This document shows positions 521 through 37,998 of a DNA stretch of 37,998 bases, piece by piece. The stretch covers positions 1 to 37,998 of the forward strand of contig CAIWMU010000165.1 of NCBI GenBank assembly GCA_903913865.1, given 5' to 3'. The position numbers were made by a program, and so were the translations under genes. The stretch is from an uncultured Verrucomicrobia subdivision 3 bacterium. GTDB taxonomy: Bacteria; Verrucomicrobiota; Verrucomicrobiia; Limisphaerales; UBA8199. Below the pieces are notes generated by a model that saw only the letters and a program-made list of their open reading frames with translations, had not been told where the DNA came from and searched no databases. Positions within the stretch are counted from its first letter, which is position 1. The number at the start of each line of letters is the position of its first letter.

Positions 521-2533
521 TTAGTTCTTCAGGCGGAAGAAACTTGTGGCCTCGTTTGCATCCAACGGAAGCACCCAATTTCCGGATTGAACTGTGGGCT
601 GATTCGTAACGGTTTGCCAGCCGGAGGCGCCATCACTCTTCTGAACAGACCAGCCTTCGAGACTATTGGTCCAGGACAGGCTTACCTTGTTGGCCGCCGG
701 AAGGTAGTTGATGCGGAGCGTGGGTGACTTGTGGTCGGCCAGCAGGTTGATCCCGGCATAGGGTCCGCAGGGGCGGATCACTGCGTAGCGGACGCGTGAG
801 AAGAAGATCTTTCCGGTGACCCTGAAACGGGCTGCAGCTTGGGGCTGCTGGTTCACACCGTTGAACTTCACGTCCGGCAACTCGAAATAGGCCTCGCGCC
901 AGCGGTCGGTGCCCTCAATGACCACGGCTGAATTTCCGGGTGTGAAGCCCAGTGTTGTCACACCGTTACGGTCGGAGCTATAGACCTCCGGGCGGAAGGT
1001 TTTCCCGATGAGTGCCGAATCATCGTAGTAGTTGATGCACATCGTCAGATGGGCGTTGGGTTGGGTGGACGGGCCAAAGATCTGGCCGGAGATGGCGAGG
1101 TTCAGGTTGTCGTGGGAGAACAGGGGGTTGCCGTCATCAAGGGCCGGGCGAATGGCGAGGCGCCGATCGTTGGCCGGGCCGGCTTCGCCCTGGATCATCT
1201 CCTGATCACCGGTGGAGGTGCCGGGTTCGAGCCCGACGAGAACTCCGTTGGCGAGATTCATCTCAGCGAAGTTGCCGTAGGTGTCGGTGCAGATCAACGG
1301 ATCCTCGTAAGCATCCGGCACGGGATCCAGTCCGGCGAGCGGATGGGGTGACTGGCGAATAATGCCCAGATCGTAGCGGGAGATGTAGGGTGTTCCGTCC
1401 TGGAAGAAGAGGCGGGGTCCGCCCGTCAACGTGTCAATGTTGACCCCCTTCAGATTGACCGCTGGAACAACGAATGCGACCCGCATCCATGTACCGGATC
1501 CGCGCAGGGTGTAATAGCGGGAGTTGTTGAAGAATCCAATGCCCCCGGCGGCATCCGTGGCGTAAGCTTCGGGGCCGAAACGCACACCGGTCAGGGCTGG
1601 ATCATCGTAGAACTCGACGCAAACCTTCATTGTTTGGGCATTGTTGCAGGTTTTGCCCAAATAATTGTCGATCACGCCAAAGTTCATCAGGCTGACCTGG
1701 GCGCGGGCTGCGCGGCGCTGATCGTTGGCGGGTCCAACCCCGTCAACGATTTCGACCAGTTGATCATGGTCGTTCAGGATCGTGAGGTGGTTTGAAGTGC
1801 CGTGCTGGAAGTCGATGAACGCCAGGTTGGTGGGGGGTTCCGGATCGCATGTATCCGGCGCTTCGAAATCGGCATAGTCCGCAGGCTCGCCAAAAGCACC
1901 CTGCTCACCGAAGGCGACGAAGCGCACGATGAGGCCGGGGACCTCCTGAACGCGGATGGTGCCGGAGTTGACGCCGCCGAACGTAGAGGCGCCCTGGGCG
2001 TTGGCCGGTATTGACCCAACAAACCGGGTGCCATCTGAGGCACGGGTGCCGTTGGGGATACGGAACAGGACCCAGTTCCATTTCTGATTTTTGGCGGTCG
2101 CTGCGATCTGTCCGCCTACGGGGGAGTCCAGCTCCGGCAGCGTGCCGATGAGGAAGTTGTAGTTGCGCGCATTGGTGCCGCTAAGAATGGCCCCATCCCC
2201 ATAAACCTGCATGAGGATGTCGATGGTGTCCGTAGTGGCCCAATCGGTGAACGAACTGTCGGCAAGGTTCATATTGTTGCCGGTGACCTTTAGACCTTGA
2301 TGGCCCCGCAATGCGATGTTCTCGGTATTTTGATCGCCTCCGGAGAGGATTGCGATGGTTTTGGACCAGGCCGGCCCGAGCGGGTCGAAGTTACCGTCGG
2401 TGCTGGTATAATGAACCACCTTGTTGGTGTTCACAACGGATGGCCAGGTCTCCGGATCGAAGGGTCCGGCCTGACACAGGGATCCGCCCGCCCAGAGGGA
2501 GGCGCAGAGGATGGATAGCAGATGTTTTTTCAT
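521..2533 (-). CDS. Secreted protein with a tandem-duplicated beta-rich module
   Basis: The 670-residue product starts with a signal peptide (MKKHLLSILCASLWAG, likely cleaved after CQA). I chose ATG 2533, not an in-frame start at 2575, because it places the Lys pair and hydrophobic core correctly. No Shine-Dalgarno is visible; the leader is A/C-rich. After about 220 unassigned residues come two related modules. Both contain GPAND(Q/R)R, a Cys followed by (E/N)(F/Y)YDD.AL, a F(G/R)PE.Y motif and a W(M/R).A(F/Y) strand. The last 65 residues (KVSLSWTNSLEGW to FFRLKN) match the C-terminal module shared by other secreted proteins here. No enzyme motif was recognised; a structural, binding or adhesin role is a guess. 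It lies 53 nt after the CotH-like gene and may be co-transcribed with it. Confidence 0.8.
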   Translation of the reverse strand: MKKHLLSILCASLWAGGSLCQAGPFDPETWPSVVNTNKVVHYTSTDGNFDPLGPAWSKTIAILSGGDQNTENIALRGHQGLKVTGNNMNLADSSFTDWATTDTIDILMQVYGDGAILSGTNARNYNFLIGTLPELDSPVGGQIAATAKNQKWNWVLFRIPNGTRASDGTRFVGSIPANAQGASTFGGVNSGTIRVQEVPGLIVRFVAFGEQGAFGEPADYADFEAPDTCDPEPPTNLAFIDFQHGTSNHLTILNDHDQLVEIVDGVGPANDQRRAARAQVSLMNFGVIDNYLGKTCNNAQTMKVCVEFYDDPALTGVRFGPEAYATDAAGGIGFFNNSRYYTLRGSGTWMRVAFVVPAVNLKGVNIDTLTGGPRLFFQDGTPYISRYDLGIIRQSPHPLAGLDPVPDAYEDPLICTDTYGNFAEMNLANGVLVGLEPGTSTGDQEMIQGEAGPANDRRLAIRPALDDGNPLFSHDNLNLAISGQIFGPSTQPNAHLTMCINYYDDSALIGKTFRPEVYSSDRNGVTTLGFTPGNSAVVIEGTDRWREAYFELPDVKFNGVNQQPQAAARFRVTGKIFFSRVRYAVIRPCGPYAGINLLADHKSPTLRINYLPAANKVSLSWTNSLEGWSVQKSDGASGWQTVTNQPTVQSGNWVLPLDANEATSFFRLKN

Positions 2534-12662: not shown

Positions 12663-12694
12663 GTGTCGTTTTTGGTTGTTGGAAGGCAGTGATT

Positions 12695-12731
12695 AAAAGG
12701 GAACGCCGCCAGCCCCTGCGGACTGGCGGCG
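12695..12731 (-). terminator. Probable terminator after the coiled-coil repeat gene
   Basis: Arms CGCCGCCAG (12704-12712) and CTGGCGGCG (12723-12731) pair perfectly around a 10-nt loop. On the minus strand a TTTT tract follows after five bases. The hairpin begins 20 nt beyond the stop at 12752. Confidence 0.7.
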
Positions 12732-12751
12732 GTAAAAGGAACCGGAGACAA

Positions 12752-13864
12752 TCAGGGTTCAGCCAGAATGCGGGCCCGTTCGCGGTGATAATCGTCGGGG
12801 GTGATGTCGTCCGCCCGATAACGCTCCAGCAGGACGGCCAGCCGGTCTGATTTCGATTTGGACAACGGGGAAGGAGGAGCATCCAGAGCTTTAAGTGCCT
12901 TCGGTGCTTCCGCCGATTTGACCACTGCAGCAGGAGCAACTTCAGCAGGCTTTTGCTTGATCTGAGCCTGCTCCGACTTTTTCTTTGCAACGGCCTCTTT
13001 TGCAGCAATCTCAGCCTGCTTCTTCGCTTCGGCGTCCTTCCGGGCGGCTTCAGCCTGCTCAGCCTTCTGCTTTGCAGCGGCTTCCCTGGCAGCGATCTCA
13101 GCCTGTTTCTTAGCCTCGGCATCTTTCCGTGCGATCTCGGCCTGTGCGGCCTGCTGTTTCGCGGCGGCTTCCTTGGCAGCAATTTCAGCCTGTTTCTTGG
13201 CGTCAGCCTCTTTTCGGGCGATCTCAGCCTGTTCGGCCTGCTGTTTCGCAGCGGCTTCCTTGGCGGCGAGTTCGGCCTGCTTTTTGGCGTCAGCCTCTTT
13301 TCGGGCGATCTCAGCCTGTTCGGCCTGCTGTTTCGCAGCGGCTTCCTTGGCGGCGAGTTCGGCCTGCTTTTTGGCGTCAGCCTCCTTGCGGGCGGCTTCG
13401 GCCTGTTCAGCCTGTTTCCTTGCAAGGGCCTCTTTGGCCGCCAGTCCAGCCTTCAGCCTGGCTTCTTCCTGGGTGCGGAGATACTCGTGGAGTGCTGCGG
13501 TGGCCTTCGCCTGTGCAGCTGAATCCGGCTTTGCGCCCTGATTAAGTTCCTGCAACTTCTGCTCGACTGCCTTCTGGGCTTCGGACTGTGCCTTGATGTC
13601 GGGCTGGGGAACAGCCATGGAGGGTGCTGCAGGGTTCTGCGAGAGTTCCTTGAGTTTGGCCTCCAGAGCCTGTCTGGCCTTCTCCTGTGTTTGGGGATCG
13701 GCAGGGGTGGGGGATGTCGCGCCGCCAGCCTGAACAGCGGCGATCTTCTCCTGAAGAGCGCGGCGGGCCTTGGCCTGAGCCTCATTGTCATCCCTGGCAG
13801 CGGCTGGAAGCGCGCAGGCAAGGGAAGCTCCCACGACGAGCCAGAAAGTTTTTGACTTATGCAT
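12752..13864 (-). CDS. Exported Ala/Lys/Glu-rich coiled-coil repeat protein (TolA-like composition)
   Basis: 370 residues from ATG 13864, chosen because a signal peptide follows directly (MHKSKTFWLVVGASLACAL, cleaved near AAA/RDD). Most of the protein is a charged alpha-helical coil of Ala, Lys, Gln and Glu. Its centre holds about five copies of a 29-residue repeat containing KKQAE(L/I)AAKEAAAKQ. The last 34 residues (LAVLLERYRADDITPDDYHR) resemble a SHOCT-type short C-terminal domain. The composition recalls the TolA stalk, but no TolA membrane anchor or C-terminal domain is visible, so I do not call it TolA. A periplasmic spanning or scaffolding role is a guess. Long opposite-strand frames here come from its low-complexity composition. 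Confidence 0.8.
   Translation of the reverse strand: MHKSKTFWLVVGASLACALPAAARDDNEAQAKARRALQEKIAAVQAGGATSPTPADPQTQEKARQALEAKLKELSQNPAAPSMAVPQPDIKAQSEAQKAVEQKLQELNQGAKPDSAAQAKATAALHEYLRTQEEARLKAGLAAKEALARKQAEQAEAARKEADAKKQAELAAKEAAAKQQAEQAEIARKEADAKKQAELAAKEAAAKQQAEQAEIARKEADAKKQAEIAAKEAAAKQQAAQAEIARKDAEAKKQAEIAAREAAAKQKAEQAEAARKDAEAKKQAEIAAKEAVAKKKSEQAQIKQKPAEVAPAAVVKSAEAPKALKALDAPPSPLSKSKSDRLAVLLERYRADDITPDDYHRERARILAEP
13020..13455. repeat. 87-bp tandem repeat inside the coiled-coil gene (about five copies)
   Basis: Units of 87 bp (29 codons) run head to tail. The copies at 13201-13287 and 13288-13374 are identical base for base, while the outer copies have diverged. The length keeps the reading frame. 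Identity at wobble positions points to recent duplication or ongoing homogenisation. Confidence 0.9.
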
Positions 13865-14282: not shown

Positions 14283-17200
14283 TCAACGCTTCAGGTTGAA
14301 GCACTTGGCACCCGCTCCGATGGGAACCGTCATGCTGTATTGACCGTTCACAGGCCCCGTAACCGCGGGCTGCGGGCTCACTGCCGACCAGGAGGACAGG
14401 GGGCTTGCGACGCTCGTAGAGGAAACGAGGGTGAACAAGCCGGCATTCGCATTCCAGGAGATGACCAGATTGGATCCGGACCGGATGGCGGACATTGTCA
14501 CAGCGGGCGATGCCAGGGGAGCCGGATGCGAGATGACGGTGTAAACCGTTGTTTCAGGCATGGTGTCCGGTTCCGCTGAGGCATTGTTGGTGCTGTTCAG
14601 TGTGCCCTTCGCTGCAAAGCAGATCTGGCGTGTGGTCATGGAAACCATGGCACCCTCAGTCTTGTAAGGGATGGTGGTGGTGCCGCCGTAGGCATCATGG
14701 TTCACGAATGGGAAGAACGTGGGAGTGAGCCACGTGACGGTGCTGCCATTGAATTGCCCCACGCGGCCCGCGACCTGGTTTTGCAGGAAGTTCGCGGTGG
14801 GCTTCAGCAGGTAGGCCACCGTGAAGCGGTCCTGGGCGTCAACCGCAATAGCAGTCCGGTCGGCTGTAGAATAGGCAGGATCCAGTTCACAAACCTTTGA
14901 GCTGGTCACGAACTGGAATGTCCTCGCATCCCAAATGCCGACGTAGTCGGATTTGGCCACCTGACCGGCGAGGTAAACATAATGGCTGCGAATGTCCGAG
15001 CCGAGCCGGGTTGCATCGCCGCGGCCGGTATCCCAGGAGATGCCGCTTTCGGTGACCACGTTGTTCGTATGAAGGGGCTTGCCTGTGTTGTCGAAGAAAT
15101 ACAGGAATTCGTGGGTGCGGATGGCGAAACCACCACTGAAGGCGGCCATGTTTTCCCAGATGTCGCGTGCATCGACCAATGTGGGGCCTTTGACGACCCG
15201 GCCATTGGGATCAATGATGGCAAAGGTGGTGACCTCACCTGCGGCGCTGCTAATCGCCGTTTTGTCATCAATCATCACCACGATGTTGCCGTTGTCCAGG
15301 AAGTTGGCGCGTCCCCCAGTGCGGCCGCACTGAGGAGCGTTGTTGGCTGCTCCCATGCTCCCGGAGTAAGGACCATAAACATAGTCCCAGGCGTTGGTGA
15401 CAGGGGTCTGGCGCAGGGTGGCGGGGTCGAGATTGAAGAGTTGCTCGGCCGGGTATCTGTTGATGCCCTGATAGATATTGTTGGCATTCCAGCGGTTGTT
15501 GGCCTGAAATTGCGGCAATTGGCCTATCGAAACTTCGCACTCAGTGATGAACCGTGTGGCGCCGTAGCGCATGTCGCCTGCCACGCGGCCCGGGTTTCCG
15601 TTCTGACGGGAGAGGTTGATCTGGCCCTTGAAGGGAAGACCGCTGTCGTCGTAGAAGGCATAGTCGATGACCGGTGCGCCACCCGTGGCGGGTTGCTTGG
15701 CGATCACGTTGTTTTGATTAAGCAGGGTGCCGTCATTGGCATAGGTGCTGAACTCGATCAGGAAGGTGCTGTCGCCCAAAACGCTCGTGTAGGGTTCCCA
15801 GTTTCCAAGGTTTGGCGCTCCCTGCTCGGCAATCTTGACCGGTCCGTTTGTGATCTGGTTGAGGACGCTGTTCCACCAGCAGATCATGTCGGGAACTACG
15901 TAGGTGAGGCCTGCCGTCTCGGGTCCGCCCAGCGGAGTTGTGATGACTGTGTAAACGGTGGTATTACCGAGAGGTGAATCGGGGAAGGACGGGCTGTAGG
16001 GGTTGTTGGTGCTGTTGATCAGGCCTTTTCCAGTGATGCAGATTGCCTTGTCGGTCATGGCCACGGCGGGGCTGAGTGTTGTGAACCCGAGCGGACCGCC
16101 ATTGAAGGCAGTGGTGTTTCCGTTGTCGGAATTCTGGAAGGCATAAAATGAGGGACAAAGATAGCTGATCTTTGAACCATCAAACTGGACAACTCGGGCG
16201 ATGATCTGGGGCTGGTATCCTGCCCATTTGTCGTGATTACCGGAGAAGGCGACACAGACGCGATTGTATTTATCCACGGCAAGTGCCGTCCGCCCGATGG
16301 TTGCGACGGAGGGGTCGATGTCGGTGCTGACCATCACGTTGGTGATGAAGGCCCCGGACTGACCATTCCAGACGGCCATCATGCAGGCGTTGCTGTCGGC
16401 ACTCATGGCTACCCCGCCAGCGATGTAAACGTATGGGCTGCGGATATCGCCACCCATGCGCACGGCATCGCCCCGGCCGAGATCCCATGAGCCGGTGAAC
16501 TCCCAGCCGTTCGGGGCGGGAGCCTGCAGGTTGGCAGTTGCCTGCACCAGATTGTTGCTCTTGATGAGGGAACCATCATTCCGGTAGAACAGAATGTCGG
16601 CTCCGGCACGGATGCAAAAGCCGCCCTGGAAAGCCGACATGTTGTCCCAGATGTCGCGTGCAGCGGCCAGTGTCGGGCCTTTGACAGAGCTTCCATCGGG
16701 CTTGATGATGGAGAAGGTGGTAACCTCCCCGGCGGCGCTGGAAATCGCCGTCTTGTCGTCGATCATCACGACAATGTTCCCGTTGTCCAGAAATTCAGGA
16801 CGTCCGCCTGTGCGGCCGCACTGGGGTGCGTTGTTTGCCGCCCCCATCGAGCCGACATATGAACCATAAACGAAGTCCCGTGCCCGCGTGAGCGGTGTCT
16901 GTGTCAGGGTGGAAGGTTCCAGACCGAACACCTGTTCGGCCGGATAGCGGTTAATTCCGGAGTAAATGTTGTTGTTTGCCCAGCGGCCATCGGTTTGGAA
17001 GGCTGGTATCTGGCCGACGGAAACCTCGCATTGCGTGATAAAGTTTGTTGCCCCGACGCGTTTGTCACCAGCCACCCGGCCTGGATTCCCGTTCTGACGG
17101 GACAAATTGATCATGCCTTTGAAGGGCAGGCCGTTGTCCCCGTAAAATGCGGAGGCAACCTTGGATGCCCCCCCGGTGGCAGGCTGTTTCACGACCGCAT

Positions 17201-17504
17201 TGTTCTGGTTCGCGAGCGAGCCATCATTTGCGTAGGTGTTGAACTCGATCAGAAAGGTGGTGTCGCCCACCACGGATGCGTAGGGTTCCCAGTTGCCGAG
17301 GTCCGCAGGCACTGCGGCGTTTTCCAGGTCAATGAACCCGTTGGTCACATATCCGCCGGAAGCGGTACTAAACCAGCAGGCGGTATCTGGAACAATATAG
17401 GCCAACCCGGCTGAGCGGGCGTCGCCTGGTATTGTTTGGGCATGGGCGGCAGTGCACACTACTGCAAAGCACGCGAGGATGGGGATGCGGGGGTTGAGTT
17501 TCAT
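14283..17504 (-). CDS. Large secreted protein made of two diverged copies of a ~498-residue unit
   Basis: 1073 residues from ATG 17504, with a signal peptide (MKLNPRIPILACFAVVCTAA, cut near AHA/QTI). The frame is open to 17594, but the extra residues would bury the signal. The body is two homologous units offset by 497-499 residues. Shared landmarks are GL.Y.VPD..CW, LGNWEPY.SV.GD, INLSRQNGNPGRVAGD, INRYPAEQ, SMGAANNAPQCGRTGGR, FLDNGNIVVMIDDKTAISSA, and a final TTVYTVI. The C-terminal 75 residues (LVISWNANAGLFTLVSS to CFNLKR) match the module on other secreted proteins here. The motifs suggest a beta-propeller-like or beta-rich extracellular fold, but I recognise no named family and no catalytic site. 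The conserved Cys residues suggest extracytoplasmic disulfides. Confidence 0.85.
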   Translation of the reverse strand: MKLNPRIPILACFAVVCTAAHAQTIPGDARSAGLAYIVPDTACWFSTASGGYVTNGFIDLENAAVPADLGNWEPYASVVGDTTFLIEFNTYANDGSLANQNNAVVKQPATGGASKVASAFYGDNGLPFKGMINLSRQNGNPGRVAGDKRVGATNFITQCEVSVGQIPAFQTDGRWANNNIYSGINRYPAEQVFGLEPSTLTQTPLTRARDFVYGSYVGSMGAANNAPQCGRTGGRPEFLDNGNIVVMIDDKTAISSAAGEVTTFSIIKPDGSSVKGPTLAAARDIWDNMSAFQGGFCIRAGADILFYRNDGSLIKSNNLVQATANLQAPAPNGWEFTGSWDLGRGDAVRMGGDIRSPYVYIAGGVAMSADSNACMMAVWNGQSGAFITNVMVSTDIDPSVATIGRTALAVDKYNRVCVAFSGNHDKWAGYQPQIIARVVQFDGSKISYLCPSFYAFQNSDNGNTTAFNGGPLGFTTLSPAVAMTDKAICITGKGLINSTNNPYSPSFPDSPLGNTTVYTVITTPLGGPETAGLTYVVPDMICWWNSVLNQITNGPVKIAEQGAPNLGNWEPYTSVLGDSTFLIEFSTYANDGTLLNQNNVIAKQPATGGAPVIDYAFYDDSGLPFKGQINLSRQNGNPGRVAGDMRYGATRFITECEVSIGQLPQFQANNRWNANNIYQGINRYPAEQLFNLDPATLRQTPVTNAWDYVYGPYSGSMGAANNAPQCGRTGGRANFLDNGNIVVMIDDKTAISSAAGEVTTFAIIDPNGRVVKGPTLVDARDIWENMAAFSGGFAIRTHEFLYFFDNTGKPLHTNNVVTESGISWDTGRGDATRLGSDIRSHYVYLAGQVAKSDYVGIWDARTFQFVTSSKVCELDPAYSTADRTAIAVDAQDRFTVAYLLKPTANFLQNQVAGRVGQFNGSTVTWLTPTFFPFVNHDAYGGTTTIPYKTEGAMVSMTTRQICFAAKGTLNSTNNASAEPDTMPETTVYTVISHPAPLASPAVTMSAIRSGSNLVISWNANAGLFTLVSSTSVASPLSSWSAVSPQPAVTGPVNGQYSMTVPIGAGAKCFNLKR

Positions 17505-17695
17505 GGTTGTGTGGGACGTTGCTCCCGTCACGGGGAGCATTTTGGTTTCTGGAACAGCATGGCGGCACGGCAGGGGTGCTGTAACTGACAGCACACCTTA
17601 CGGGTGGCAACCCTGCCCCGCTGCATGTTGTTCCGGGTTTGCATAAGCCACGGCACCTGTTACTGATCGAATACATATGACACCGTCAAGCCTCA
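17505..17695 (-). promoter_or_regulatory. Structured 5' leader of the duplicated-unit protein gene
   Basis: The DNA upstream of ATG 17504 can form several stems: GCTCCC with GGGAGC just before the start (17521-17538), GTGCTGT with ACAGCAC (17576-17594), and GGGT with ACCC (17602-17613). I could not match this to a known riboswitch class. A TTGACG at 17687-17692 (minus) might be a -35, but no convincing -10 follows. Confidence 0.3.
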
Positions 17696-34628: not shown

Positions 34629-37274
34629 CTACGGGGAGACGATCTGGTAGAACCGCTTGCCGGCGCCGATGGCGTCGGTGGTGGACTTCACGCTGCCATC
34701 ACCGGCAACCGTGCTCAGCAGGGTCCAGGTGCCGCTGAAGAGATCATCGCGATAGAACACGCGATAGGTCGCGCCGGCCTGGGTTGCGAAGGAGATGGAG
34801 ATGTTTCCACCCACCTTGGCCGTGTTCACACTGATCCCGGAGATCGGAACCAGCATCATGTAGTTCGCGTTCGCGCCACCGGTGGTGACGAGGCGGAGGG
34901 TTTCCTTGCCGCCCAGCGTGAGCAGGATCGGCGCGGCGAGACCTTCATCCGTCAACGGGACCCAGTCATAGGTGTCCCAGCCACGACCCACGGCACCCCA
35001 GCGGCCCAGGCGCTTCGTCGTCTGGGTGGTGGTGCCGACCCCGGCAGTCACCTTGTCGAGATACATGGAGTAACCGCCGCCGCCCGAGAAGCGGCCATAG
35101 ACGAGATACTTGCCGGCGGGATAGGTACGGGTGTAGTTCGCCCAATCACCGTTCTGGAAGTAGCCGATGACGTAATCGGTCTCGGAGACATCGGTATACT
35201 TCTGAAGTTTGAAGTCAGAACCGATGCCGTTCGGGATGCCGACCGGGCGGTAGTAATATTGTTCGCCACCAGAGTAGGTGTGGTGGTAATCGACGTTGGT
35301 GACGGCATCCACCAGATTGGTGAAGTAGCCGGAGGGCACCGGATTGTCGGTGAAGAGACCGCCGCCGAAGTCGAAGTCCTCAGCCTGGACGATGTAGTTG
35401 TTCTGGCTGAAGGTGTCGAACTTGCGGGTGATGGCGAGGCCGGTTCCAATGTCGTTCGTGACCGTGATGACGGCGGTGTGCGGCGCATTCAGGAGCAGGC
35501 CGGGATAGACGACGCTCTTCGAGGAGGCTGTGCCTGTAATCTGGAGTCTGGAGGAGACGTCAGCACCATCCAAAGTCATCTTGATGTTGCCCTGGTTGAA
35601 AGTTCCACCTGCGGAACTGACCTTGAAGCTGATGGCGTTCGTGGATTCGAACGGCTGGGTGCCGGTCGGGTAGAGATCGCTCAGCACGGGGAGATCCAGC
35701 TGGGCTTTGACGAGCATAAAGAAGCCCATGTCCACATTGCCGCCGGTGGTGGCCCTGAGGGTGGTCTTGCCGTCGAGGGTGATGTTGGCATTGTTGCCGC
35801 TCGCGTCCTTCAGGTAGAAGTAGTCATAGGTGGTCCAACCCCGGCCGTTGTCGATGGTGAAGGTTCCCAGAGTGGTGGTGCTTGTGTCCGGGTTCACTTT
35901 GCTCAGGGTAAGAGTGCCGCTGCCGCCGCCGTTGGCGAGGCGGGCGATCACCCAGTAGGTTCCCGGGGTGAAGTCGCGGGTGTAGTTCACCCATTCGCCA
36001 CCTTCGAACCAGCCGACCTTGTAGTCGCCACGGCCAGCGGCCGCGAGATTCGGGCGGAGATAGTCGCCGGAACCGGTGGTCGCAATTCCGGTGGTCGGCC
36101 GGTAGCTGTGGTCGCCATCCATCACGGTGTTGTTTTCATCAACCCCTTGAACACCGACCTTGCCGAAATAGCAGTTCGGATTGCCATCCACAGAGCAGAG
36201 TTCCGGATTGTTGATGTAGCTGCCGCCATCGAAGTCGAAGTCTTCAGCTTCCCAGATAAACAATGCCGGTGGCACACCCACCCAGGTGGTTTGAAACCAT
36301 GTGCTGGCGTTCACGGCAAATGCATAGGCATCCTTGACGGTGATCTCAGCGGTATAGGTCGCGTTGGAGCCGAGGTGACGGTAGGCAACGGTCTTGCTGG
36401 AGGCGGTCCCGGTGACTTCCAATCCAGCGGAGACATCGGTGCCGTTGAGGACCAGTTTGATATCGCTGGGATTGATCGTGGTTCCGCTCGGCGAACTGGC
36501 GGTGAAGGTGATGCCATCCGCCGGGTTCACGAAGATCAGGTTGTTCGGGGAAAGGCTGCTAACGATCGGCGGCAGGGGGCCGCTGAGCTGGTTCAGCACG
36601 GCGTCGTCGAACTGACAGGCACCGCCGCCTTCAGGCCAACCACCGCCCTGTGTGTGGGCATGGCGATAGCGCACAAATTTCGTCCCGGCCGGGGCGACGA
36701 GCTGGCTGACTGAGCCAGTGACGGCATAAGTGGGGAAGGAAGGATCGCCTGTGGAGATGACCTGAGAGAGGTCACAAGCATTGGTGACTTCCAGATTGAA
36801 CCAGGTATCCAGCCCCCAGGAGGAGTTGAAATCGGCCGATTTGTAGAGAGCGATCGGGTTTTTAGCATCGTTCAGGAAGGCCACCTCGATCCATGACACA
36901 TTGTTCGGCCCCATGTTGTCACCGGTGACGGTGAAAAACCAACCACTCGCCTTATACACGGAGGTCGGTGCGCTGTTGAAATCCTGATAAATGCCGGCGA
37001 TGTTCGTGCGCGCCGCATCCCAATAAATGCCCCATTCCTTGTAATAATAAGTGCCTGAGTGCTGCCGGTTGCCGGCGTTGTCGATCCAATAGCTGCCGTA
37101 ACCCGCATCGGGTGGCTTGAAATAGGTCCAGCCGGTCGGAACATTATTGCCCGAATTGAGCTCAAAGCCCGGGTTTACGAGGATGTTAGCAGCGTTGGCG
37201 GTGTCCGGCGCGAGAGCCGCAACAGCCAGAGCCACCCCGCACAGCGCGAGGTGTCTATACAGCGTTTTTTTCAT
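34629..37274 (-). CDS. Secreted carbohydrate-binding protein with two Ig-like + CBM6-like units
   Basis: 881 residues with a signal peptide (LALCGVALAVAALAPDTANA). Residues about 30-225 form a CBM4/9-like sandwich (NILVNPGFELNSGNNVPTGW to CQFDDAVL). Then two tandem units of about 290 residues follow, each an Ig-like domain (240-330 and 530-622, both with DG.DVS..L..TGTASSK.V-type strands) and a CBM6-like domain (about 340-525 and 628-825). These open with WEAEDFDFDGG or VQAEDFDFGGG and carry VGWFEGGEWVNYTR or IGYFQNGDWANYTR. The end (ISISFATQAGATYRVFYR to RFYQIVSP) is the C-terminal module seen on other secreted proteins here. No catalytic domain is present, so it probably binds glycans or acts as an adhesin. 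A strong promoter lies about 100 bp upstream. Confidence 0.85.
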   Translation of the reverse strand: MKKTLYRHLALCGVALAVAALAPDTANAANILVNPGFELNSGNNVPTGWTYFKPPDAGYGSYWIDNAGNRQHSGTYYYKEWGIYWDAARTNIAGIYQDFNSAPTSVYKASGWFFTVTGDNMGPNNVSWIEVAFLNDAKNPIALYKSADFNSSWGLDTWFNLEVTNACDLSQVISTGDPSFPTYAVTGSVSQLVAPAGTKFVRYRHAHTQGGGWPEGGGACQFDDAVLNQLSGPLPPIVSSLSPNNLIFVNPADGITFTASSPSGTTINPSDIKLVLNGTDVSAGLEVTGTASSKTVAYRHLGSNATYTAEITVKDAYAFAVNASTWFQTTWVGVPPALFIWEAEDFDFDGGSYINNPELCSVDGNPNCYFGKVGVQGVDENNTVMDGDHSYRPTTGIATTGSGDYLRPNLAAAGRGDYKVGWFEGGEWVNYTRDFTPGTYWVIARLANGGGSGTLTLSKVNPDTSTTTLGTFTIDNGRGWTTYDYFYLKDASGNNANITLDGKTTLRATTGGNVDMGFFMLVKAQLDLPVLSDLYPTGTQPFESTNAISFKVSSAGGTFNQGNIKMTLDGADVSSRLQITGTASSKSVVYPGLLLNAPHTAVITVTNDIGTGLAITRKFDTFSQNNYIVQAEDFDFGGGLFTDNPVPSGYFTNLVDAVTNVDYHHTYSGGEQYYYRPVGIPNGIGSDFKLQKYTDVSETDYVIGYFQNGDWANYTRTYPAGKYLVYGRFSGGGGYSMYLDKVTAGVGTTTQTTKRLGRWGAVGRGWDTYDWVPLTDEGLAAPILLTLGGKETLRLVTTGGANANYMMLVPISGISVNTAKVGGNISISFATQAGATYRVFYRDDLFSGTWTLLSTVAGDGSVKSTTDAIGAGKRFYQIVSP

Positions 37275-37566: not shown

Positions 37567-37656
37567 CCGGGTCCCCGGTTTGTGGCGGTCCCAAAACGAT
37601 CGCCCGGAATCAGAATGGCTTGAAACCTGGTTGAGGCACCCGTTCGAACCTTCGGC

Positions 37657-37961
37657 ACAACCCCCTTCGGGGTAGGGTGGGTTGTCGGGTCATACCCGGG
37701 GTAACGCCGCCGACGGCGTAACCCCGGGCTTTGTGGCAGAACCCCGGTAGGGGTTCCCTGAGGGGGTTGCAGTCGATGGGGGGCAGGCATGCGCGGCAGG
37801 CTGGCATCCCTCCGGGAATCCCAACGGGATTCTGCCATGAAGCCCATGGTTGCACCACGGAGGTGCTACCATGGGTAAATGGTGGATAACTCGACAACCC
37901 GGAACGGGTTGTGCCGCAGCAGCACACACGGGAGATTCGTGGAAGGTGTCCCGATGCGGCA
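37657..37961. repeat. Dense train of seven hairpins (candidate structured RNA or palindromic repeat element)
   Basis: Consecutive stems are: ACAACCC/GGGTTGT (37657-37685, inner CCCC/GGGG); CCCGGGGT.ACGCCG/CGGCGT.ACCCCGGG (37695-37728, one A-A mismatch); GAACCCC/GGGGTTC (37739-37756); GAATCCC/GGGATTC (37816-37832, outer GGCA/TGCC); CCCATGGT.GCACC/GGTGC.ACCATGGG (37843-37875, one T-T mismatch); ACAACCCG/CGGGTTGT (37894-37912); and TGCCGCA/TGCGGCA (37912-37961). The first and sixth stems share the sequence ACAACCC/GGGTTGT. Open frames across it are by-products of the palindromes. It may continue past the window end. Confidence 0.65.
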
Positions 37962-37998
37962 GAATGGAAAACGCCACGGTATGTGGCCACCAACGCGC

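Follow-up and report, generated by a model that had tools for sequence, protein, structure and literature searches.

A dispersed three-hairpin repeat family in a Verrucomicrobia subdivision 3 genome and its probable mobilisation by an IS200-branch transposase

The hairpin-rich end of the window (the whole 37,998-nucleotide stretch of DNA that was analysed, from an uncultured Verrucomicrobia subdivision 3 bacterium) is probably part of a non-autonomous, intergenic repeat family, REP/BIME-like and MITE-like in character, which would be moved as single-stranded hairpins by a transposase of the IS200 branch. The basic unit of the family is ~110 nt long and is composed of a hairpin (H1), ~20 nt, a second hairpin (H2), ~10 nt and a third hairpin (H3). 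The earlier note had described a train of seven back-to-back hairpins within 305 bp. All seven stems were located by script and their density is far beyond chance, but they are not independent, as six of them correspond to H1-H2-H3 of one unit (A) plus an inverted copy, H3'-H2'-H1' (unit B), and the seventh extends into a pair spacer. The description of little unpaired sequence between the stems does not apply throughout, as 37757-37815 is a 59-base stretch containing no listed stem. The two symmetric mismatches that had been reported are present, A-A in H2 of unit A and T-T in H2 of unit B, and represent one conserved H2 mismatch on opposite strands; the stem ACAACCC/GGGTTGT does occur twice, in H1 of each unit. 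The features are as follows, with matches to the covariance model R1 (described below) obtained in the source genome.

37630-37652, + strand: spacer tail leading into unit A, assigned by resemblance (alignment to other + units and by-eye comparison with aligned pairs)
37653-37765, + strand: unit A, three-hairpin repeat (R1 match, 103.9 bits)
37657-37663/37679-37685, + strand: H1 of unit A, ACAACCC/GGGTTGT, with an inner CCCC/GGGG (script)
37695-37709/37714-37728, + strand: H2 of unit A, 14 pairs with one A-A mismatch, GTAA at the GTAG position
37739-37745/37750-37756, + strand: H3 of unit A (script)
37807-37916, - strand: unit B, three-hairpin repeat (R1 match, 120.6 bits)
37816-37822/37826-37832, - strand: H3 of unit B (script)
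37843-37856/37862-37875, - strand: H2 of unit B, 13 pairs, mismatch T-T on + and A-A on -, GTAG on -
37894-37901/37905-37912, - strand: H1 of unit B, containing ACAACCC/GGGTTGT (script)
37912-37918/37955-37961: seventh stem, the weakest, 7 bp with a 36-base loop (script)
37917-37998, no strand assigned: start of the pair spacer after unit B (window 37808-37978 matches C127:12463-12633, 82%)

Under a strict hairpin rule (stem of at least 7, loop of at most 12) five of the seven stems in the 305-bp segment were accepted by script. The 305-bp tiles from the rest of the window (n = 123) contained no such hairpin in 90 cases, one in 29, two in three and four in one, and no more than two arose in any of 500 single-base shuffles of the segment. 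Folding of 37640-37998 (359 bases) as a single strand gave z values of -7.5 (+) and -6.7 (-), a stability matched by none of 100 dinucleotide shuffles on either strand. The matching region C127:12463-12633 is a unit (-) plus spacer and is followed by a unit (+) at 12691-12801. Because the window runs from unit B into a similar pair spacer and stops there, the DNA past the contig end would be expected to carry another + unit, and unit B together with 37917-37998 looks like one half of a -/+ pair cut at that point. Elsewhere in the window, an 881-aa ORF with a CBM6 domain (34629-37274, -) has its start codon ~380 bp from unit A, an ORF of 1103 aa (14283-17594, -) gave no Pfam match at E<=0.001, and no tRNA or tmRNA was found.

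A DNA search of the 6.27-Mb source genome with the segment returned 110 matches, many of which were one place on both strands. The covariance model R1, constructed with 42 of the 59 units that had been collected, gave 148 matches in the same genome, or 146 on 70 contigs after two overlaps were dropped; 150 candidates were scored, and the family is taken to comprise at least 146 units. A covariance-model search of this and related genomes had been proposed in the earlier note, and the segment proved to be repeated rather than unique. Units may stand alone, form clusters or be arranged as inverted pairs (unit-, a spacer of 117-138 bp, unit+). Neighbouring units less than 600 bp apart (n = 51) were arranged -/+ in 29 cases, +/- in 12, -- in five and ++ in five, and the gap measured 117-138 bp in 26 of the 29 -/+ pairs; an alignment of 27 such pairs showed spacers that were similar, by eye, within subfamilies. 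One -/+ pair (L029:10640-11245, C234) lies between direct copies of another ~100-bp repeat, giving a mosaic cluster.

The units are intergenic. None of the 125 that were placed on loci (of 146) overlapped a gene by more than 25 bp, compared with 52% of random placements, the genes having been called with a codon-usage script trained on 18 ORFs of the window and not with a standard gene finder. Among 34 units flanked by called genes on both sides, the neighbouring genes were convergent in 18 cases, tandem in 11 and divergent in five. Of the 146 units, 49 begin less than 700 bp from the first base of a contig, and assembly thus seems to have been interrupted by the repeats; the window, too, stops in a pair, and these positions suggest a reason for the break there.

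Pairing within the unit was assessed in both the source genome and others. In the 42 units of the source genome 98.3% of cells pair (92.5% after shuffling) and 73 cells carry double changes (22.7 after shuffling). Two of the five measures failed to beat shuffling in this set: the count of pairs showing double changes was 7 (6.0 in shuffles, 60 of 500 reaching that value) and that of additional pair types 12 (13.1 in shuffles). In 150 units from other genomes 96.0% of cells pair against 80.8% in shuffles and double changes affect 23 of 26 pairs, a signal that was lost when pairing partners were slid. The compensatory changes that had been proposed as a check are thus present, with 506 double-change cells in the foreign units against 134 in shuffles, although these counts overstate the number of independent events, since related sequences beat shuffles easily and the foreign alignment (A3), having been fitted to the model, is biased towards pairing. 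G.U accounts for only 18 of 3501 standard pairs (0.5%) and one-sided intermediates are nearly absent. Scarce G.U in covarying stems suggests hairpins of DNA, and the missing intermediates are as expected if both strands must fold or if a protein reads the DNA hairpin.

Certain letters of the unit are also conserved. The tetranucleotide GTAG, which sits within the 5' arm of H2, was found in 126 of 150 foreign units, and 124 of the 150 show the A.A mismatch at that step; the 42 units of the source genome carry GTAG in 25 cases, GTAA in 15 and the mismatch in 39. The four bases 5' of H1 and those 5' of H3 vary between units and tend to agree within a unit. These feet were identical in 20 of 73 units (146 units reduced to one per locus), compared with a shuffled mean of 3.9 and a maximum of 13 in 2000 shuffles; the rows are related and the significance is approximate. 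In IS200/IS605 elements, as described in PMC8266576, 5' tetranucleotides guide the cut, and the feet bear a resemblance to these, and a resemblance only; their agreement could alternatively reflect common descent of H1 and H3.

A candidate enzyme is encoded on C57, where a gene at 662-1114 (151 aa) sits between a unit at 525-634(-) and a unit at 1179-1289(+), with H1 inward in both. The earlier note had suggested looking for a flanking RAYT-like gene; a Y1 transposase gene between units was indeed found, but it belongs to the IS200 branch, and the RAYT family NF047646 gave no match to the protein at E<=0.001. The protein matched PF01797 (Y1_Tnp) with 71.6 bits (cut-off 23), and its only NCBIfam match was NF033573 (IS200), at 49 bits against a cut-off of 55, a threshold passed by two of the four proteins of the source genome that were tested. 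The motif Y---Q--HH (Y116, Q120, H123 and H124) is invariant in 10 aligned proteins. Among solved structures the ISHp608 transposase is the nearest by sequence, and other chains annotated as transposases come next; several further matching chains are presumably ISDra2, and two of the ten hits were a designed repeat or unrelated proteins with weak E-values. The next homologues in the source genome are only 40-47% identical, so that a single gene copy accompanies many units, a situation also known from REPtrons. Homologues were detected in 62 of 97 genomes searched, the source genome included, and among the matches listed they lie in records labelled Verrucomicrobia, Planctomycetes, Armatimonadetes, Acidobacteria and others; these phylum names are record labels, mostly of MAGs.

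The arrangement around the C57 gene is repeated in other genomes. Scanning of 71 foreign loci with the model located units within 250 bp on both sides of the transposase gene in 41, on one side in 13 and on neither in 17. The two-sided loci showed the -/+ layout in 33 of 41 cases and a different one in eight. Over all scanned loci, the closest unit on the left was - in 37 of 49 and that on the right + in 43 of 46. A model-free count over 105 non-redundant loci gave 1.96 and 1.90 hairpins per 150 bp beside the gene, compared with 0.66 and 0.88 at a distance of 900 bp and 0.74 in shuffles. The median inverted-repeat score between the two gene flanks was 28.5, against 8.5 for far flanks; it exceeded the 95th percentile of far flanks in 82 of 104 loci (22 did not) and that of mismatched loci in 63 (41 did not). 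At some loci with no model match, among them L160 and L205, trains of hairpins are present whose stems differ in sequence. Among the matches listed, inverted flanks above the far-flank threshold were present at 13 of 15 loci with Planctomycetes-type labels, four of four labelled Armatimonadetes/Fimbriimonas and three of four labelled Acidobacteria/Thermoanaerobaculum, and were not above it at single Calditrichota, Ignavibacteriales, Deltaproteobacteria, Sumerlaeota and Treponema loci.

Units and transposases also diverge together. Unit similarity was correlated with transposase similarity over 103 loci (rho 0.37; far-flank control 0.01), with a Mantel value of 0.38 against a maximum of 0.13 in 300 permutations, mostly via the closer pairs. 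In 40 genomes tallied, a C57 homologue at E<=1e-10 was present in 22 of 31 with units and in two of nine lacking units. The nine unit-bearing genomes with no homologue at this threshold possibly contain relics, have missing contigs or use other enzymes.

One locus provided evidence of an empty site. A cluster of units on C127 lies between the convergent 3' ends of permease-like and hydrolase-like genes (as read from translations), which are 681 bp apart. The orthologues in a genome of the same genus (G001), with DNA identities of 77% and 70% over matched stretches, are 19 bp apart, with 16 bp between the matching blocks. This was one of three loci tried, the C39 and C104 loci having no orthologous junction in G001, and loss of the cluster in G001 would produce the same picture.

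The source genome contains eight Y1_Tnp genes. Four of these, at C159:12675, C194:100, C262:6585 and C17:54 (L045-L048), appear RAYT-like by eye; R1 gave no match at E<=0.1 in these loci, the last three of which are at contig ends with one flank each outside the assembly. A further gene, at C69:6293-6730 (L042), is inside a repeat array with stems around CCGGTGGT, and is flanked by weak R1 matches at 1365-1478(-) and 1936-2038(+), as is the gene on C118 by weak matches of its own. The Y1 genes of C39:55899-58437 and C118:17316-18221 lie among hairpin repeats particular to them, with 35 and nine genome matches respectively (queries included), those of C39 mostly in alternating orientation.

The proposed mechanism, in which binding, cutting and mobilisation are attributed to the C57 TnpA and a strand and cleavage site are suggested, draws these observations together. 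A unit would fold when its stretch of DNA becomes single-stranded, as may happen on the template of the lagging strand. TnpA would bind the hairpins, with the H2 mismatch and GTAG and the matched 4-nt feet 5' of H1 and H3 as candidate contacts, cut near the outer end and move the inverted pair or pieces of it, and one TnpA gene might in this way sustain considerably more than a hundred copies. According to PMC8266576, GTAG and a bulge in the stem of E. coli REPs are both important to TnpAREP. The GTAG, the A.A mismatch and the matched feet supply specific predictions for binding and cutting.

Other explanations were weighed against this mechanism. It is unlikely that a different Y1 enzyme, such as the product of a RAYT-looking gene on C159, C194, C262 or C17, moves the units and that the C57 gene is merely among them. 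Eight Y1 genes are available, RAYTs classically serve REP repeats, and three of the four genes show one flank only; yet R1 matches were absent from all four loci at E<=0.1, many genomes have C57 homologues with units on their flanks in this inverted arrangement, and the similarity of units goes with that of C57-type enzymes. That the palindromes propagate themselves with no dedicated enzyme, by recombination, replication slippage or gene conversion, is the least likely of the explanations weighed here: clusters, truncated units and repeated pieces, such as those around the C57 gene, would fit such a process, but discrete pairs with narrow spacing over 70 contigs and the co-divergence of units with the transposase argue against it.

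A function after transcription, as a structured non-coding RNA or as terminators or mRNA-stabilising hairpins, is very unlikely, even though the unit folds strongly, covaries and, in 18 of 34 cases, lies between convergent genes, placing many units where transcripts end. RNA helices usually carry far more G.U than 0.5%. Both strands fold, units are found in both orientations and a transposase gene is flanked by them; Rfam gave no match in the window at the gathering score, and four matches at E 0.57-5.9 were at chance level and far below that score, with nothing beyond chance at E<=10. The structured RNA suggested in the earlier note was consequently rejected. The two other alternatives given there, a mobile palindromic element and the end of a mobile element beyond the window, are supported by the at least 146 dispersed copies, the inverted pairs, the compensatory changes and the unit-flanked transposase gene, but the element is not a textbook REP/RAYT one, given its three hairpins and IS200-branch enzyme. 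An integron attC-like array, considered at first, was set aside once the units had been linked to a Y1 gene.

Movement by the IS200-branch enzyme is therefore the preferred reading, and a broader proposal can be attached to it, for which the chances appear evenly balanced: that Y---Q--HH enzymes of this branch drive a distinct and widespread REP-like system in Verrucomicrobiota, Planctomycetota and their neighbours, with three-hairpin repeats in which a central GTAG/A.A hairpin stands between two with matched guide-like feet. REP repeats and domesticated transposases are described mostly from Proteobacteria in PMC3733652. Three-hairpin repeats with such enzymes were not found among the literature titles and abstract openings surveyed, which covered few subscription journals.

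Comparison with the GTAG REP/BIME/REPIN repeats and RAYTs of E. coli, as presented in PMC3733652, PMC6006769 and PMC8266576, reveals high-copy intergenic palindromes, inverted pairs and clusters in common, along with one repeat-flanked gene per repeat type, GTAG and a conserved stem mismatch. In those accounts the REP is one hairpin of 20-40 nt with GTAG/GTGG free, 0-2 nt 5' of the stem, and is served by a RAYT, whereas the unit here has three helices over 110 positions, carries GTAG within the H2 arm and accompanies an enzyme with no NCBIfam RAYT match; a canonical GTAG-REP/RAYT system was rejected. TIRYTs/TIRtrons (PMC3733652) likewise have Y1 genes between repeated inverted sequences, but they belong mostly to subclass 2.1 and often have repeats with GGGGWSAS, and this identity was rejected since GGGGWSAS on either strand is nearly absent from units (one of 42 in the source genome, five of 150 foreign). 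Class 3 TnpAY1, for which PMC6006769 describes atypical high-copy structures in Planctomycetes and Acidobacteria, a Y----Q motif and CnGA feet, was rejected on the Y---Q spacing.

IS200/IS605 elements with an IS608-type TnpA share with this system the Y1/HuH transposase, ISHp608 as the best solved relative and, possibly, guide-like 5' tetranucleotides. Such elements are characterised by a single-strand circle intermediate and by insertion with no target duplication. Their ends have one subterminal hairpin each and are not inverted repeats, whereas here the ends are inverted and three-hairpin, the gene is single-copy with many units, and the protein remains below the NCBIfam IS200 cut-off. By its motif the C57 enzyme resembles TnpAY1 subclass 1.2, which is characterised in PMC6006769 by Y---Q--HH, as near IS200/IS605 with no IS properties, generally with no typical terminal structures, and mostly from Cyanobacteria and Bacteroidetes. 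Low gene copy number is also shared; unlike that description, the genes here are unit-flanked and, among the matches listed, the records that contain them carry labels such as Verrucomicrobia and Planctomycetes. The pairing of an IS200-branch enzyme with high-copy composite hairpins, in records of several phyla, bears on the passage from selfish IS200-type elements to enzymes that serve repeats. If the broader proposal is true, the system would provide a substrate for a subclass described as generally having no terminal structures, and would form a bridge between IS200/IS605 elements and REPtrons.
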